From NCBI GenBank assembly GCA_035528375.1, contig DATKYS010000080.1, forward strand, positions 1-8,057: DNA of 8,057 bases. The letters run 5' to 3'. The position numbers and the translations under genes were made by a program. Position 1 is the stretch's first letter, and each line of letters begins with the position of its first letter. The notes beneath the pieces are model-generated. The model had not been told where the DNA came from. It searched no databases and saw nothing but the letters and a program-made list of their open reading frames with translations. The DNA comes from a bacterium (GTDB lineage: Bacteria > RBG-13-66-14). Positions 167 to 8,057 of this stretch are shown one piece after another.

Positions 167-197
167 TTAAACATCGGCGCAGCCGGTGTGCTAAAAT
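167..197 (+). promoter_or_regulatory. Predicted sigma-70-type promoter with extended -10
   Basis: TAAAAT at 192-197 is one substitution from the TATAAT consensus. It is preceded directly by TGC (189-191), giving an extended -10 element. A weak -35 candidate, TTAAAC at 167-172, sits 19 bases upstream, longer than the ideal 17, but extended -10 promoters depend less on the -35. Transcription would begin around 203-206, leaving a leader of about 25 bases before the GTG start at 231. This is the only convincing promoter seen in the window, and it could serve all four downstream genes. The assignment is by pattern only. Confidence 0.5.
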
Positions 198-213
198 AGC
201 AGCGATTTTAAGC
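190..213. promoter_or_regulatory. Imperfect dyad overlapping the -10 and start site (possible operator)
   Basis: GCTAAAAT at 190-197 faces ATTTTAAGC at 205-213. The arms are complementary over eight pairs with one bulged A at 211, around a 7-base spacer. The left arm is the predicted -10 and the right arm covers the likely transcription start. That is a classical position for a repressor operator. The arms are short and no regulator is encoded nearby, so this is a suggestion only. Confidence 0.25.
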
Positions 214-218
214 CGTCC

Positions 219-225
219 GGAGAGG
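219..225 (+). promoter_or_regulatory. Ribosome binding site for the zinc-ribbon/pseudokinase gene
   Basis: GGAGAGG lies five bases before the GTG at 231. This purine-rich Shine-Dalgarno match decides the GTG start, and the zinc-ribbon cysteines begin at codon 3, so no later start is plausible. Confidence 0.7.
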
Positions 226-230
226 TCGAC

Positions 231-2855
231 GTGTACTGTCCCGCCTGTGGCAAGGAAAACCCCGACCACGCGCGCTTCTGCCGCCATTGCGGTACGCGGA
301 TGCCCGACCTGGCCACGGAGACCACCACCGACGCCGACCTCGAGCTCATCGAGGGCGCCAGTGAATTCGTCGGCCAGACCCTCGGTCGCTACCGGGTCCT
401 GCGCAAGCTCCGGACGACCTCGACGGGCATCGTTTACCGTGCCCTGGACACCCAGCTCGACCGCATCGTCGCCCTGAAAATCCTCCCCCACGGCCTCGGC
501 GCTACGGGGTCGGAATCACCGAGCCCCGTGGAAGAGGAGGAGGCGCTGGAGGCCTTCCGTGAGGAGGTCAACCTCGCCGCCAACCTCGAGCATCCCAACA
601 TCCTCCCCGTCCACGACTTCGGCCGCTTCGGCGACAACTACTTCGTGGTGATGAAGCAGGCCGACGGGCACTCCCTGGCGCGGCACATCGAGAAGCGCGC
701 CCCCCTGGCGCCCGTCGAGATGCTCCGCATCGGCATCCAGATCGCCACGGCCCTCGTGTATCTCCACAAGCGCTTCATCATCCACGGGCGGCTGTCGCCC
801 TCGGGGATAATCCTCCAGGACTCGGGGCACGTCCTTCTGCGGGACATCACCTTCCTCGGCCGGAAACATCCCCGACCCCTCTCGCCCGAGGAGAAAATTT
901 ACCAGGCGCCCGAGCTGGAAAAGGGAGGCTCGTTCGACGCCCGCTCGGACATCTACTCCCTCGGCGTCATCCTCTACCAGCTCCTCACCGGCCACCTCCC
1001 CTACACCGAGGATGGCGGCGAGGCCGACGAGCTCACCGTGCGGGGCGTCCCGCTGTCCCTGGAAGAGCTCCTCATCTCCATGATCCAGCGCGACCCGGAC
1101 AAGCGGATGAACTCCGTCGAGGATGTGCGCGAGCGGCTCCGGCGGGCCTACTCTCTCTCCATCACCTCCATGGCCGGCGAGGAGGACCTGACCGGGGAGT
1201 TCATAGACTTCTCCCGGCTCTCGACAGCCCAGGAATCGGACCGCCGCGTCATCCTGGAGGGATTGCTCAGCGCCCTGGCCAAGGACATAGACCTGAAGAG
1301 CATGCTGGTCGTGGACACCGACGCCGAGGCCCTGGACGCCATCGCCGCCGGGGAACCGGCCCCCACGAACTCCATCGGGCGCCTGTCTTTCTACTCCGCC
1401 CTGGACGAGACGGTGCGGCTGGCCAGAATGGGCCAACTGGCCGACGCCCTGGAAAACCTCGTCGGTGAGACGAAAATCGTGAAGGAAAAGGCGCTGCCGG
1501 CGACAAAAGCTTTCTTGGCCAGGGTGGGGGAAAGGGAGAGGAAGCTCAAGCGCGCACGCTTCATCCTGGGCAACAACCTGGTGACCGAGTTCCGCCGGGC
1601 GGCGGAGAGCTTTTCCCAGGTGCTCTCCGGCGATTCCAACTGCGAGGAGGCCCGCGAGGGGCTCGCCATCCTCTCCAGCCTCGGTGAATTCTGGCAGCAG
1701 GCGAAGGAAAAAACCAAGCCGAAGTGGCTTCTACCGGCTATCATACTCGGCGGAGCCGCGATTCTGACCGCGGTCCTGCTCCTGATGTTCGGCGGCCCAG
1801 ACCCGGGGATGCTGGCCGACACCCTCTCCCCGCGCGGCTTCCTCCCCGGCGGCATCCAGAACCTCCTCGGCGAGGCCACCGGGGCCGAATCCGTGCTGGC
1901 TCTGCCCTCGGCCCCGGTCAGCGAGCCCACCTTCTCCGGCGATTGGGTCCTCGTCCCCCTCGAGGGGGCCACCCTGGCCGCTTACTCCCTGGCCTCGGAG
2001 GAGGAGGTTTGGCGCCAGAGCGACTATCCGGTGGACCACCCCCCGCTGGTCTACCGGAAGGAGATAATCTCCGCCTCGGGGCAGGTTCTCACCCTGCGCG
2101 ACGCCGACGGCTCGACCATCGCCACCCACAACATCGAGGAGCGCCTGGCGGGAATCCCCGCCCTGGGCCCCGAGGGGCAGCTCTACGTGGCCAACGAGAA
2201 GGGGACCATCTACGCCTTCGACCTGGCCACACCGAGCAAGCTGCGCTTCCTGTGGTCCATCTCAAGCCAGGCCCGTCCCGCCGGCCTGTTCCCCACACCG
2301 GCGGGGAAGAAGCTCCTGGTCAGTTTCATAGACGGTTCCCTGGTGCTCTTCGACGGTTTCAACGGCGGCGAGCTTTGGCGGTACCAGATTCAGGGCTCCA
2401 ACGTACCCACCGCCCGTTCGCCCCAGCCGATCATCACGGGGAACACCGTCTACATCGCCGCCTCCAACCGCTGCATCGCCCTGTCCCTGGAGGACGGCTC
2501 ATTGCTTTGGGAACAGGAGCTCTCCGGACCCCTCGGCAACCCCACGCTCTGGGAGGGCTCCCTCTTCATCCCCTCCGGCGACGGTCGGATCTACAGATTG
2601 CTGGCCGACGGCGGGAACGTGGCTGAGGTGGAGAACCTCGGCAACGGGCTGACCCTGGAGAGACCGCTGGTCTGCGGGTCGGAGCTCATCCTCCGCCTGA
2701 CGGACGGCGGCCTTCTGCCGGTGCGGACCACCGACCTCCGACCGGTGAACCGTGAACTGCCCAAGGCCGACTTCCCCCTCGCCGCCACCAAGGGTTCGGC
2801 CTGGCTCATCCGAGGCACGAGGGTGTACCGTCTTTCGAGCTCCGAAGAGGATTGA
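231..2855 (+). CDS. Zinc-ribbon / predicted pseudokinase / transmembrane / PQQ beta-propeller protein
   Basis: This 874-residue protein starts at GTG. Residues 3-20 form a zinc ribbon with CxxC pairs at C3/C6 and C17/C20. Residues about 52-305 have the Hanks-type Ser/Thr kinase fold: VALKIL with K83, alpha-C E112, APE at 226-228 and the F-helix motif DARSDIYSLGVILYQLLTG. The glycine loop is degenerate (LRTTSTGIVY), HRDxKPxN is replaced by HGRLSPSG (185-192), DFG by DIT (205-207), and the activation segment is short. It is therefore probably catalytically weak or dead, although K83, E112 and D205 could still bind nucleotide. Residues about 385-485 are helical and TPR-like. A single membrane helix spans 499-520 after a basic stretch, placing the kinase in the cytoplasm. 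Residues about 565-870 carry PQQ-like propeller strands (YVANEKGTIYAFDL, GGELWRYQI, DGSLLWEQEL) outside. The architecture resembles AfsK-type kinases with PQQ sensor domains. The likely role is a sensor or scaffold; the ligand and partner are unknown. Confidence 0.88.
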   Translation: MYCPACGKENPDHARFCRHCGTRMPDLATETTTDADLELIEGASEFVGQTLGRYRVLRKLRTTSTGIVYRALDTQLDRIVALKILPHGLGATGSESPSPVEEEEALEAFREEVNLAANLEHPNILPVHDFGRFGDNYFVVMKQADGHSLARHIEKRAPLAPVEMLRIGIQIATALVYLHKRFIIHGRLSPSGIILQDSGHVLLRDITFLGRKHPRPLSPEEKIYQAPELEKGGSFDARSDIYSLGVILYQLLTGHLPYTEDGGEADELTVRGVPLSLEELLISMIQRDPDKRMNSVEDVRERLRRAYSLSITSMAGEEDLTGEFIDFSRLSTAQESDRRVILEGLLSALAKDIDLKSMLVVDTDAEALDAIAAGEPAPTNSIGRLSFYSALDETVRLARMGQLADALENLVGETKIVKEKALPATKAFLARVGERERKLKRARFILGNNLVTEFRRAAESFSQVLSGDSNCEEAREGLAILSSLGEFWQQAKEKTKPKWLLPAIILGGAAILTAVLLLMFGGPDPGMLADTLSPRGFLPGGIQNLLGEATGAESVLALPSAPVSEPTFSGDWVLVPLEGATLAAYSLASEEEVWRQSDYPVDHPPLVYRKEIISASGQVLTLRDADGSTIATHNIEERLAGIPALGPEGQLYVANEKGTIYAFDLATPSKLRFLWSISSQARPAGLFPTPAGKKLLVSFIDGSLVLFDGFNGGELWRYQIQGSNVPTARSPQPIITGNTVYIAASNRCIALSLEDGSLLWEQELSGPLGNPTLWEGSLFIPSGDGRIYRLLADGGNVAEVENLGNGLTLERPLVCGSELILRLTDGGLLPVRTTDLRPVNRELPKADFPLAATKGSAWLIRGTRVYRLSSSEED

Positions 2856-2877: not shown

Positions 2878-5800
2878 ATGACTAACGCTTCCCAGAACGT
2901 CCCCTTCGTCCATCTCCACAACCACAGCGAGTACTCGGTTCTCGATGGCATGTGCCGCGTCGAGGACATGGTCTCCCGGGCCGTGGAGTACGGCATGGGC
3001 GCGCTGGCGCTGACCGACCACGGCAACATGTTCGGTGCGGTCAGTTTTTACCAGGCCTGCCGGCGCCGGGGCGTCGTGCCCATCATCGGCTGCGAGGCGT
3101 ATCTGACCCCCGGCTCCCGCTTCGATAAAGATTCCTCCCAGAAGGACCGCCATCATCTCATCCTACTCTGCGCCGACGAGACGGGCTACCGCAACCTCAT
3201 CAAGCTCACCAGCCTGGCCCACACCGAGGGTTTTTACTACAGGCCGAGGATTGACCGGGATATTTTGGAAAGATACTCGGCGGGCCTCGTGTGCCTCTCG
3301 GCCTGCCTCTCCGGCGAAATCCCGCGCCTGTTGCAGGGCGACGACTACGCGGGGGCGCTGGCGGCGGCCGGCTGGTACGCGGAAATCTTCGGCCGGGAGA
3401 ACTTTTTCCTGGAGCTGATGTACCACGGGCTCGACGTAGAGCGGAAGGTCAACCACGGCCTTTTGTCCCTGGCCCGGGAGCTCGGGCTGGGGACCGTGGC
3501 CACCAACGACTGCCACTACCTGGACCATTCCGACCACCGCGCCCACGAGGTCCTGCTCTGCATCCAGACTTCAAAGACCCTCGCCGATCCGGACCACATG
3601 CGCTTCCCCTCCGACCAGTTCTACTTCAAAAGCCCCCAGGAAATGGCAAAGACCTTCGAGGAGCTCCCCCAGGCGGTGGCCGCCTCGGAGGAGATCGCAC
3701 GGCGGTGCCGCCTCGACCTTGAGCTGGACCCCCTGGGCGGGAAGCTCCCCTCCTACCCCGTCCCCGAAGGCCACGGCGAAGAGGGCGCCTACCTGCGCGA
3801 GCTGGTGCTGGAGAAGCTCCCCGAGCGCCTCCCCGGCTGCGGCGATGAGTACAGGACCAGGATGGCGGAGGAGCTGGACATCATCGAGGCCATGCACTTC
3901 CCCGGCTACTTCCTGATCGTGTGGGACATCATCAACCAGGCCCGGCAGATGGGGGTCGAGGTCGGCCCGGGACGAGGTTCCGCCGCCGGCTCCCTGGTGG
4001 CGTACGTCCTGGGCATCACCGACATAGACCCCCTCGGGTACGGTCTCCTCTTCGAGCGCTTCCTGAACCCCGAGCGGGTCAACCTGCCCGACTTCGACCT
4101 GGATTTCGCCGACGACCAGCGAGAGCAGGTCATCGAGTACGTCAAGCGGAAGTACGGCGAGGCCAACGTGGCCCAGCTCATCACGTTTTCCCGGCTGGGT
4201 GCGCGGGCGGTCATCCGCGACGTGGGGCGCGTCCTCGGCGTCCCCCTGGAAGCGGTGGACCGGGTGGCCAAGCTCGTCCCCTTCGGCTCGGGCGTGACGC
4301 TCGCGGGCGCACTGGAGACCACCCCCGAGCTCCGGCTGATCCAGCGGGAGGACCCGCTCATCGCCGAAGTCCTGGGGTACGGTCGGAGCCTGGAGGGACT
4401 GGTCCGCCACGCCGGCACCCACGCCGCCGGGGTTGTGCTCTCCGATCACCCCCTCGACGAGATGGTTCCCATGTACCTGGGCAACACCACCCAGTACGAC
4501 GGGAGCTCGGTGGAGAAGGTCGGCCTCCTGAAGATAGACTTCCTGGGTCTGAAGAACCTCTCGGTCATCCGGGACTGCCTGGAGCTGGTTTACAAACGCC
4601 ACGGGAAGCGGATCCGGCCCGAGGACATCGCGCCGGACGACCCGAAGACCTACGAGCTGTTGAAACGGTGCGACACGGCCGGCGTCTTCCAGCTCGAGTC
4701 GGAGATAGCCCGCGACGTCCTGCGGCGGGTTGCCCCGGACAACTTCCGCGAGCTCATCCCGGTCCTGTCACTCTTCCGCCCCGGACCCCTGGGCAGCGGG
4801 ATGACCGAGACATACATCAAGGGCAAGCACGGGACGACGCCCATCTCCTACCCCCACCCCTCCCTGGAGGGCGTCCTGGCGGAGACTTTCGGGGTGATGG
4901 TCTACCAGGAGCAGGTGATGCAGGTCGCCAGCACCCTGGGCGGCTTCTCCTATGGGCGGGCGGACCTCTTGCGGCGGGCCATGGCGAAGAAGACGGGGGA
5001 ACTCGACAGCTTCCGCGAGGAGTTCATCCGGGGCGCCGCCGGAAAGGGGATAGATGCGAAGCTCGCCGGGCAGGTCTTCGACCAGATAATCCCCTTCGCC
5101 AGCTACGGCTTCAACAAGAGCCACTCCGCCGCCTATGCCGTGGTCACCTACCGCACCGCCTGGCTCAAGGCCAATTACCGCCCCGAGTTCATGGCGGCCA
5201 TCCTGTCCCACGAGCTCTCCGACGAGGACAAGATAGCTTTTTACCTGGGCCAGTGCCGTCACGACGGCCTCGAGATTCTGCCCCCCGACCTCCACCGGAG
5301 CGACACGTATTTCACCGTGGAGGACTCGAACGGCGACACCGCCATCCGCTTCGGTCTGGGCGCCATCAAGAACGTGGGGCTCGGCATGGTGGGAGGGATA
5401 ATCGCCGACCGCGACAAAAACGGTCCCTTCGCCTCCCTGAAGGACCTCGTGCTCCGGCTGGGCACCCAGCAGGTCAACAAGCGGGTCCTGGAAAGTTTGG
5501 TGAAGAGCGGCGTGGTGGACTGCCTGCCGGGCACACGGAGCCAGAAGTACGCCGCCATCGAGTCCATCCTCGAGACGGCGGCCGCCGAGCAGCGCGACAT
5601 GCAGATGGGCCAGGAGTCTCTCTTCGGCGGTAAGACCGGCGAGAGGCCCGCCGACCCCCTGGACGAGAACCTCGAGCCCTGGAACGAGCACGAGAAGATG
5701 AGGGGGGAGAAGGAGACGCTTGGAATCTACCTCTCCGGCCATCCCCTCACCCGCCACCGGGCGGTCATCGAGCGCTTCGCCACCACCGACCTCGCCCGGG

Positions 5801-6333
5801 TCCAGAGGCTGCAGGGCGGGGAGTCGCTCCGCGCAGCCGGCGTTTTCGCCCAGATCACCCGGAAGCTGGACCGGAACAACCAGCGCATCGCCTTCGCCAC
5901 CCTGGAGGACGAGGGGGCGTCGGTGGAGGTGGCGATTTTCGCGGAGACGTACGCCCGCCACCGCGAGCTGGTGGCCAAGGACTCCGTCGTCCTGGTGGTC
6001 GGTCAGGCGCAGACCAGCCGCGAGGAGATAAACATCCGCGCCAATGCCATCTACGACCTGGCCCGTGTGCCGCGCCTGCTGGCCCGGCAGCTCCACCTGG
6101 AAATTCTCGGCGGCGCCCTCACCGACGAGGACCTGCTGCCCGTCCGGGACCTTTTGGTAAAATACCCCGGCGAGCTCGAGGTCTACATCCACCTGAAACT
6201 GACCGGGGGCGGGGCGACCCTCCTGACCGGCGCGGCGTACATGGTCGCCCCGGACGAGGAGCTGCAGAAAAGGCTCGAGGAGCTGCTCGGGGAGGGGAAC
6301 GCTTACTTCACCCCGGCCCCGGAGATGGGCTAG
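2878..6333 (+). CDS. dnaE: DNA polymerase III subunit alpha (replicative DNA polymerase, DnaE type)
   Basis: This 1151-residue protein is close to the usual DnaE length of about 1160. It extends DNA at the replication fork as the catalytic subunit of the polymerase III holoenzyme. The N-terminal PHP domain (about 8-280) begins FVHLHNHSEYSVLDG. It keeps a full set of likely metal ligands: H12, H14, D23, H48, E73, H93, C143, D211 and H213. The polymerase core has GPGRGSAAGSLVAYVLG (363-379), catalytic D405 and D407 in PDFDLDF, and D554 in KIDFLGL. FGVMVYQEQVM and GFNKSHSAAYA follow. A helix-hairpin-helix segment lies near 866-880, a clamp-binding motif QESLF at 912-916 and an OB fold at about 983-1058. 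There is no inserted DEDD exonuclease, so it is not PolC. The ATG at 2878 is chosen because family similarity begins at residue 9. The frame stays open upstream to a GTG at 2752, but that stretch looks non-coding. The gene begins 22 bases after the upstream stop, without a Shine-Dalgarno sequence. Confidence 0.98.
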   Translation: MTNASQNVPFVHLHNHSEYSVLDGMCRVEDMVSRAVEYGMGALALTDHGNMFGAVSFYQACRRRGVVPIIGCEAYLTPGSRFDKDSSQKDRHHLILLCADETGYRNLIKLTSLAHTEGFYYRPRIDRDILERYSAGLVCLSACLSGEIPRLLQGDDYAGALAAAGWYAEIFGRENFFLELMYHGLDVERKVNHGLLSLARELGLGTVATNDCHYLDHSDHRAHEVLLCIQTSKTLADPDHMRFPSDQFYFKSPQEMAKTFEELPQAVAASEEIARRCRLDLELDPLGGKLPSYPVPEGHGEEGAYLRELVLEKLPERLPGCGDEYRTRMAEELDIIEAMHFPGYFLIVWDIINQARQMGVEVGPGRGSAAGSLVAYVLGITDIDPLGYGLLFERFLNPERVNLPDFDLDFADDQREQVIEYVKRKYGEANVAQLITFSRLGARAVIRDVGRVLGVPLEAVDRVAKLVPFGSGVTLAGALETTPELRLIQREDPLIAEVLGYGRSLEGLVRHAGTHAAGVVLSDHPLDEMVPMYLGNTTQYDGSSVEKVGLLKIDFLGLKNLSVIRDCLELVYKRHGKRIRPEDIAPDDPKTYELLKRCDTAGVFQLESEIARDVLRRVAPDNFRELIPVLSLFRPGPLGSGMTETYIKGKHGTTPISYPHPSLEGVLAETFGVMVYQEQVMQVASTLGGFSYGRADLLRRAMAKKTGELDSFREEFIRGAAGKGIDAKLAGQVFDQIIPFASYGFNKSHSAAYAVVTYRTAWLKANYRPEFMAAILSHELSDEDKIAFYLGQCRHDGLEILPPDLHRSDTYFTVEDSNGDTAIRFGLGAIKNVGLGMVGGIIADRDKNGPFASLKDLVLRLGTQQVNKRVLESLVKSGVVDCLPGTRSQKYAAIESILETAAAEQRDMQMGQESLFGGKTGERPADPLDENLEPWNEHEKMRGEKETLGIYLSGHPLTRHRAVIERFATTDLARVQRLQGGESLRAAGVFAQITRKLDRNNQRIAFATLEDEGASVEVAIFAETYARHRELVAKDSVVLVVGQAQTSREEINIRANAIYDLARVPRLLARQLHLEILGGALTDEDLLPVRDLLVKYPGELEVYIHLKLTGGGATLLTGAAYMVAPDEELQKRLEELLGEGNAYFTPAPEMG
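5611..5625 (+). other. Internal sliding-clamp-binding motif in DnaE
   Basis: Codons 912-916 encode QESLF, matching the QxxLF form of the bacterial beta-clamp-binding peptide. It lies between the helix-hairpin-helix region and the OB fold, where the internal clamp motif of DnaE proteins is known to sit. This motif tethers the polymerase to the DnaN ring for processivity. Confidence 0.75.
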
Positions 6334-6783: not shown

Positions 6784-8057
6784 ATGGTTAAGCTGAAGGT
6801 GCTGCTGATTCTTTCCCTAGTCGCCGCGGCGCTGGGCGACGCCGGCTACCTGGGTTCTGTTTCCTCCGGCGCCTCGCCCATCGGCGGGCACCCGGGAATC
6901 GCCATGACCGCCGAGGACGTGGTCATCGAGCTCCGCCGCGAGCACGTGGACTACGAGGATTGGAGCGCGAACATATACGATGCCACGGTAACCGCCGACT
7001 TCCTCTTCACCAACACCGGGGACGCCGACACGGTCTACATGTACATCCCCCACGCGGTGCGGACCGCCTTCGTCTCGTACCTCTACGAAGCCGAGGACAT
7101 GGACACGCCGCTGGAAAACCCGCGGGTGCTCGTGGACGGGGAGCCGGTGGAGGTGCGCAAGGTCTGCCTGGGCGCCTTCGACCCGGAGTACATGGGGGAA
7201 ACGACCTGGGACGAGTTCGCCGAATTGACCCGGCCGCTGTTCGATGCAGAGCCTAAGGCGGGCGGGCCGTTCTACTTCACCCGCTACTTCGTCGAAGGCG
7301 ATGAGGAGTGGGGGGGGAAGATAACCCACCCCGCCGAAGCGGTGCTGGCCTACTGGGAGGTCCCCTTCGCCCCGGGCGAGACTAAGCTCGTCGAGTACGT
7401 CCAGGATTACGCGCTGACCTCGGACTACGGCGAGAGCGTCTTCCGGCTCACCTACCCGCTGTTCACCGGGGCGGGCTGGTCGGGCGCCATCGGCTCGGGC
7501 CGGGTGAGCGTCGTGTCCGGCGAGGGCTGCGACTGGGGAGACCTGCTCTATTACGTCGGCCTCCACCTGCCGCTCCCGGCGGATAGGGATGGATACCGCC
7601 TGGACGTCCTGGACCCCATAGCCGACCGCTCGGATTTCGGGAAGTGCGATCTGGCGCGATACGACGGGGAGAAGTACCCCCGGGCGCTGGTCTGGCAGTT
7701 CTCCGATTACGAGCCCTACCCCGGCCAGCTCAACTGCAACGCCCTCTACCCCGACATCGGCGACATCGGCAACTCCCAGTACATGCTCTACGACGACTTC
7801 GACGCCGGCGTCGTGGAGGCGTACGTCAACCCCTGGGACTACTCCATGATCTACCTCTACCTGGGCCGTTACGCGCCGACTTATTTCCTCTCCGCGAACA
7901 CCGAAGGCGTGCCGCTCTACGACTCCCCCGGCGGCGAGCCGCTGGGCGAGAGCGTCGCCTTCACACGGAGCGCGGAGATTCTTGGGCAGGAGGGGAATTG
8001 GGTCAACGTCAGGTCGAGCGACTGGGAGACGGGGGCCGACGTGGTGGGCTGGGCCAA
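6784..8057 (+). CDS. Secreted protein, DUF4424-like N-terminal region plus bacterial SH3 domain, C-terminus beyond window
   Basis: The frame is open for 424 codons from the ATG to the window edge with no stop, so the gene is partial. A signal peptide is clear: K3 and K5, hydrophobic VLLILSLVAAALG, cleavage likely near residues 18-20. Residues about 35-90 read GGHPGIAMTAEDVVIELRR and then VTADFLFTNTGDADTVYMYIP. This resembles the start of DUF4424-type proteins: an extracytoplasmic beta domain with a conserved M-x-x-E-D segment followed by a framework of valine and phenylalanine strands. Residues 376-424 (VPLYDSPGGEPLGES, then GNWVNVRSSDW and VVGWA) match a bacterial SH3 (SH3b) domain, usually a cell-wall or peptide-binding module. 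Four cysteines, at 128, 249, 288 and 318, could form two disulfides. The protein is acidic and rich in Tyr and Trp. It follows the DUF2141-like gene by 12 bases. Function is unknown; an envelope location is inferred. Confidence 0.8.
   Translation, partial: MVKLKVLLILSLVAAALGDAGYLGSVSSGASPIGGHPGIAMTAEDVVIELRREHVDYEDWSANIYDATVTADFLFTNTGDADTVYMYIPHAVRTAFVSYLYEAEDMDTPLENPRVLVDGEPVEVRKVCLGAFDPEYMGETTWDEFAELTRPLFDAEPKAGGPFYFTRYFVEGDEEWGGKITHPAEAVLAYWEVPFAPGETKLVEYVQDYALTSDYGESVFRLTYPLFTGAGWSGAIGSGRVSVVSGEGCDWGDLLYYVGLHLPLPADRDGYRLDVLDPIADRSDFGKCDLARYDGEKYPRALVWQFSDYEPYPGQLNCNALYPDIGDIGNSQYMLYDDFDAGVVEAYVNPWDYSMIYLYLGRYAPTYFLSANTEGVPLYDSPGGEPLGESVAFTRSAEILGQEGNWVNVRSSDWETGADVVGWA

Follow-up and report, generated by a model that had tools for sequence, protein, structure and literature searches.

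A putative single-pass membrane pseudokinase with a zinc ribbon and a beta-propeller in one family of Candidatus Coatesbacteria

The gene at positions 231-2855 of the window (the whole 8057-bp stretch of DNA analysed, which is an entire contig, G000:C80, of a 2.63-Mb genome whose nearest named relatives are Candidatus Coatesbacteria) was found to encode a Hanks-type kinase homologue from which catalytic residues have been lost in all six family genomes where the region could be read. The protein is probably a non-catalytic, single-pass inner-membrane pseudokinase working via binding, as a receptor or scaffold. A sequence-only reading had proposed that it would signal by binding rather than phosphorylation, a reasonable suggestion to which the pattern of constraint among orthologues lends strength; as the catalytic residues were lost long ago and selection nevertheless persists, binding-based signalling or scaffolding appears the most likely role. 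Bacterial pseudokinases are common, yet almost none has an assigned role (PMC12599244). Here, one was present in all seven family genomes examined, each with just one to three Hanks kinases in its kinome, and the orthologues show where constraint shifted once catalysis had been lost. What might be dismissed as a 'dead kinase' thus becomes a testable map, giving a face to mutate and indicating that alphaG and the activation segment no longer matter. The features of the window are as follows.

231..2855, + strand: whole gene for the 874-residue putative pseudokinase receptor, GTG start, orthologues in 7/7 family genomes
234..299, + strand: N-terminal zinc ribbon, residues 2-23 (PF13240, 34.5 bits against a cut-off of 25)
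384..1166, + strand: pseudokinase domain, residues 52-312 (PF00069; structure model)
408..434, + strand: degenerate glycine loop LRTTSTGIV, residues 60-68 (orthologue alignment)
477..479, + strand: beta3 Lys83, kept in the window protein
564..566, + strand: alphaC Glu112, invariant in the alignment
669..785, + strand: alphaD-alphaE segment, residues 147-185, the most constrained part and a candidate docking surface
783..806, + strand: degenerate catalytic loop HGRLSPSG, residues 185-192 (orthologue alignment)
843..914, + strand: DFG degenerated to DIT, followed by an activation segment free of constraint up to APE, residues 205-228
936..965, + strand: intact alphaF motif DARSDIYSLG (orthologue alignment)
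999..1052, + strand: site of the missing alphaG helix, a 12-residue deletion relative to the active paralogue (alignment and both structure models)
1173..1700, + strand: predicted cytoplasmic helical region, residues 315-490 (model)
1731..1793, + strand: single membrane helix, residues 501-521, with basic residues N-terminal to it (hydropathy in five orthologues; model)
1875..2840, + strand: C-terminal beta-propeller, BamB/PQQ_2-like, predicted periplasmic (PF13360; BamB and YxaL matches)
2878..6333, + strand: dnaE, 22 bp downstream, adjacent in relatives

A kinase fold without its catalytic residues

Attention had initially been drawn to positions 402-914, corresponding to residues 58-228 of open reading frame 231-2855. 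The alignment to the Pkinase profile and the structure prediction that had been advised were carried out and established a genuine, PknA/PknB-like Hanks kinase homologue. Profile PF00069 matched residues 55-294 with 94.4 bits (cut-off 31.7; E 9.8e-27), placing the domain within the Hanks-type fold, and the kinase domain modelled alone reached a pLDDT of 87 and a pTM of 0.87. The best structural matches of this model were PknA and PknB (Z 29, 2.1-2.5 A over about 250 residues), and no pseudokinase was present among the best fold matches listed for it, an absence that carries no weight. The full-length model had a pTM of 0.45, and its membrane-proximal region and domain placement are unreliable.

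Every residue that had been named as kept or lost was verified. The fold markers K83, E112, A226-P-E228 (the APE motif) and D236-ARSDIYSL-G245 (the F-helix DxxSDIYSLG) are retained in the window protein, whereas HRD has become H185-G186-R187, placing an arginine at the catalytic Asp, the catalytic-loop Lys and Asn are S189 and G192, and DFG reads D205-I-T. The glycine loop has lost two of its three glycines (R61 and T63 in place of the first two, with G66 retained).

The gene was present in 7/7 family genomes, which span four genera. As the copy in G003 is split over contigs and known by two end pieces that lack the catalytic region, statements on motifs rest on six genomes. The catalytic loops of the orthologues read HGRLSPSG, HGRLSAAS, HGNLSAAG or HGRIAASG and the DFG positions DIT, DVD, DVE or DMY, an overall pattern of HG[RN] and D[IVM][TDEY], with the catalytic Asp, Lys and Asn missing in 6/6 sequences. 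Orthologues were inspected for normal HRD and DFG motifs, which would have spoken against a pseudokinase, and these were degenerate in all six that could be read. Under the definition of PMC12599244 (loss of at least one of the beta3 Lys, HRD Asp and DFG Asp), the family belongs to the pseudokinases through the HRD Asp, lost in 6/6. The residues by which an active Hanks Ser/Thr kinase is recognised, namely the HRD Asp, the Lys and Asn of the catalytic loop and an intact DFG, are incomplete in all four genera, and the protein is predicted to be inactive as a kinase. No orthologue was found in seven further genomes of the phylum. When 84,980 species genomes were scanned with patterns designed for close relatives, only Coatesbacteria and one distant clostridial kinase (31% identity) were added. 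The pseudokinase is apparently confined to one family of Candidatus Coatesbacteria. Its clade was monophyletic (100/100) on a long stem (1.77), and the tree gave it no firm placement among other kinases.

Part of the nucleotide pocket was retained, with E112 and the DFG Asp (D205) present in 6/6 orthologues and K83 in 5/6 (Glu in G005). As the DFG Asp is invariant, metal binding is not clearly lost, and the retention of these residues could support nucleotide binding and counts against the preferred, binding-based reading. A switch lacking phosphotransfer, in which nucleotide held by K83-E112 and D205 would shift the conformation, is nonetheless improbable. Besides the Glu at K83, the glycine loop of G005 is interrupted by an insertion, and the Ala of the VAIK motif is Glu in two genera (G004, G006) and Val in a third; ATP binding is therefore not the conserved property, and conservation of the pocket is not family-wide. 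The same three residues, together with the precedent of SidJ and SelO (PMC12599244), could also be taken to indicate an enzyme repurposed for some other ATP-dependent transfer using D205 and K83. This is very unlikely, given that alphaG, a constrained activation segment and the glycine loop have been lost and that K83 is not universal.

Selection and shifted constraint

Purifying selection on the kinase domain was evident from Nei-Gojobori dN/dS values of 0.12 (G001) and 0.09 (G002) within the genus and 0.29-0.32 between genera, the latter being rough because dS was 0.7-0.9. The kinase domain and the zinc ribbon, the Cys3/6/17/20 of which are invariant in the alignment, were the best-kept parts of the protein between genera, and the propeller evolved faster (dN/dS 0.64-0.76). 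Decay of the gene or an assembly error, to which the broken copy in the G002 assembly might point, can be given next to no credence: the G002 breaks fall on runs of N, and elsewhere the frames are open, selection is purifying and like substitutions recur in four genera. Error and recent decay were ruled out on these grounds.

Constraint was compared between the pseudokinase and the intact zinc-ribbon kinase of the same genomes, using the same three genera. Segment borders were chosen after the alignment had been viewed, and both p values given here hold after correction for eleven regions. Conservation of beta1-beta3 was equal, at 67% in the pseudokinase and in the active paralogue. In the activation segment, only 22% of positions were invariant in the pseudokinase, compared to 76% in the active paralogue (p=2.6e-5), and its length among orthologues ranged from 24 to 41 residues. 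The earlier description of this segment as short therefore holds for the window protein's own genus (24 residues) and fails for G004 and G006 (41 residues). The alphaG region is 12 residues shorter than in the active paralogue, and both models have no helix between alphaF and alphaH. The loss of constraint on the activation segment and the loss of alphaG are firm. The opposite trend was seen in alphaD-alphaE, where 35/39 positions (90%) were invariant in the pseudokinase, compared to 19/38 (50%) in the active paralogue (p=1.6e-4). As the addition of G005 lowered the former to 26/39, slightly above neighbouring regions, this excess is only suggestive, and alphaD-alphaE may be unusually conserved in the pseudokinase.

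Topology, propeller and known relatives

A hydrophobic helix at about residues 501-521 was preceded by basic residues in 5/5 orthologues checked. Under the positive-inside rule, the basic flank of a membrane helix lies on the cytoplasmic side, and the kinase domain is therefore predicted to be cytoplasmic, with the propeller on the far side of the membrane. The genome appears to be that of a diderm, as indicated by five Omp85 matches, and the external propeller that had been anticipated would thus lie in the periplasm. The zinc ribbon and the propeller themselves were both supported, the latter by a PQQ_2 match (PF13360, 83.4 bits) spanning residues 617-796. The NCBIfam BamB model (TIGR03300) gave 62.9 bits, far below its cut-off of 285.2, and the PDB chains 7dxn and 7eq5 matched by the propeller are Bacillus YxaL. 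The suggestion that the protein is ligand-responsive did not find support. A PQQ_2 or BamB-like propeller does not necessarily bind PQQ, and PQQ was rejected as the ligand as the pqqE model gave nothing above its cut-off; the pqqC search carries no weight because its own control matched nowhere. A PDB sequence search with the helical region (residues 315-490) returned no match and thus no solved relative.

Bacterial 'dead' kinases are already known, seven families being largely or wholly pseudokinases according to a 2025 review (PMC12599244). Among these is the actinobacterial ActPs1, which in many members carries a C-terminal PQQ_2 domain and in about 60% lacks the G-helix (PMC12599244). The window protein resembles it in having PQQ_2 C-terminal to the pseudokinase and in lacking the G-helix. 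It differs in that ActPs1 has all three catalytic residues substituted, whereas the present family mostly keeps the beta3 Lys and always the DFG Asp, and in its zinc ribbon and Coatesbacteria host, the comparison being made by description and not by tree. The claim that the combination was not obviously described thus fell for pseudokinase plus C-terminal PQQ_2 and stood for the rest, and the architecture of zinc ribbon, pseudokinase, membrane helix and propeller appears to be new. RqkA (DR2518) of Deinococcus radiodurans likewise joins a Ser/Thr kinase domain to beta-propeller PQQ motifs, but has kinase activity, which PQQ and DNA ends stimulate (PMC11007091); that the window protein lacks the catalytic residues speaks against a quinoprotein kinase of the RqkA type. 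A Streptomyces kinase with a PQQ match also has intact catalytic motifs. PknA and PknB, the closest solved folds, are active, with HRD, DFG, activation loop and alphaG intact. The zinc-ribbon and PEGA kinase of the same genome (G000:C142) shares the zinc ribbon and a kinase domain of about 35% identity, but has HCD, KPGN and DFG intact and PEGA in place of the propeller. BamB, of the same propeller family, is a free lipoprotein, whereas the propeller here is tethered to the pseudokinase.

For a binding receptor, the propeller would dock a protein or ligand in the periplasm, while the zinc ribbon, pseudokinase and helical region would bind a cytoplasmic partner, for which the alphaD-alphaE face of the C-lobe would be the likeliest docking surface. 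The state would then cross the membrane through assembly or conformation, not phosphotransfer. A more specific version, in which the protein founds an undescribed family of trans-envelope receptors, with a BamB-like periplasmic propeller reporting to a docking, non-catalytic kinase domain that is lineage-fixed and dnaE-linked, is put forward tentatively.

Genomic neighbourhood and possible partners

The dnaE gene lies directly downstream with a gap of 16-22 bp in G000, G001, G003 and G004, is likewise the following gene in G002 and G005, and probably so in G006, for which the automatic ORF call is ambiguous. The operon-like arrangement offers a lead and nothing more; no functional tie to replication follows from it. 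Upstream, a double zinc-ribbon/GYF_2 protein is encoded in G000, G001, G003 and G006, and 1.7 kb off in G004; the G000 gene (L074, 9495-10277 of G000:C75) is on a contig overlapping that of the window. The upstream position in G005 is occupied instead by a 7TM-HD protein and, directly upstream (L069, 14673-16181), by a DNA methylase fused to an Mrr-like endonuclease domain.

Each family genome had one to three Pkinase matches, among which only the pseudokinase was found in 7/7. The intact zinc-ribbon PEGA kinase was found in 5/7 and an ATPase-type kinase in 3/7. As searches did not recover the zinc-ribbon kinase from G001 (96% complete) or G005 (70%), an active partner kinase is not established as obligate, and obligate pairing with the PEGA kinase is unsupported. 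The MviN pseudokinase domain (ActPs3) and EssB/YukC are non-catalytic membrane pseudokinases that act as scaffolds (PMC12599244) and so offer a precedent for the binding reading, but have other membrane parts and no propeller. MviN acts via FhaA, whereas the source genome has no FHA match, and an output of the MviN-FhaA type was rejected; a PP2C partner was rejected in the same way, PP2C_2 having no match in that genome. The failure of the intact-kinase, FHA and PP2C_2 searches to supply a candidate partner counts against a binding receptor, as does the shrinking of the alphaD-alphaE excess once G005 is added.

The missing receivers would be consistent with an EssB/YukC-like envelope scaffold without sensing, a fixed part whose propeller holds a periplasmic machine and across which no signal passes. 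The BamB-like propeller also fits, as does EssB itself, a membrane pseudokinase scaffold with a degenerate loop and reduced activation segment (PMC12599244). Such a scaffold is nevertheless rather unlikely, as the neighbours are dnaE and the zinc-ribbon/GYF_2 gene, with no secretion or assembly genes adjacent, and the between-genera dN/dS of the propeller is unlike that of a fixed docking part. A pseudokinase that works via binding is the preferred reading.

Positions 1-182 of the window are AT-rich (GC 32-35% in 1-120, compared to 65% overall) and unlike the end of contig C75, whose gene start matches window positions 183-362 at 96%; they are either a chimeric contig end or a strain variant. 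At the other end (6784-8055), a 424-residue ORF with a signal-like N-terminus and no Pfam match runs off the contig. PADLOC also gave hits to defence kinases, PD-T4-6 among them, which were read as reflecting no more than general kinase similarity. In unrelated genomes, L030 (HGELNPGT with HYGG) and L033 (HGHLVPGN with DFS) have degenerate loops of an HGxL pattern and are further pseudokinase candidates, and kinases of about 1690 residues with HGDVKPSN/TN loops (L046, L047, L048) were seen in another family of the phylum.
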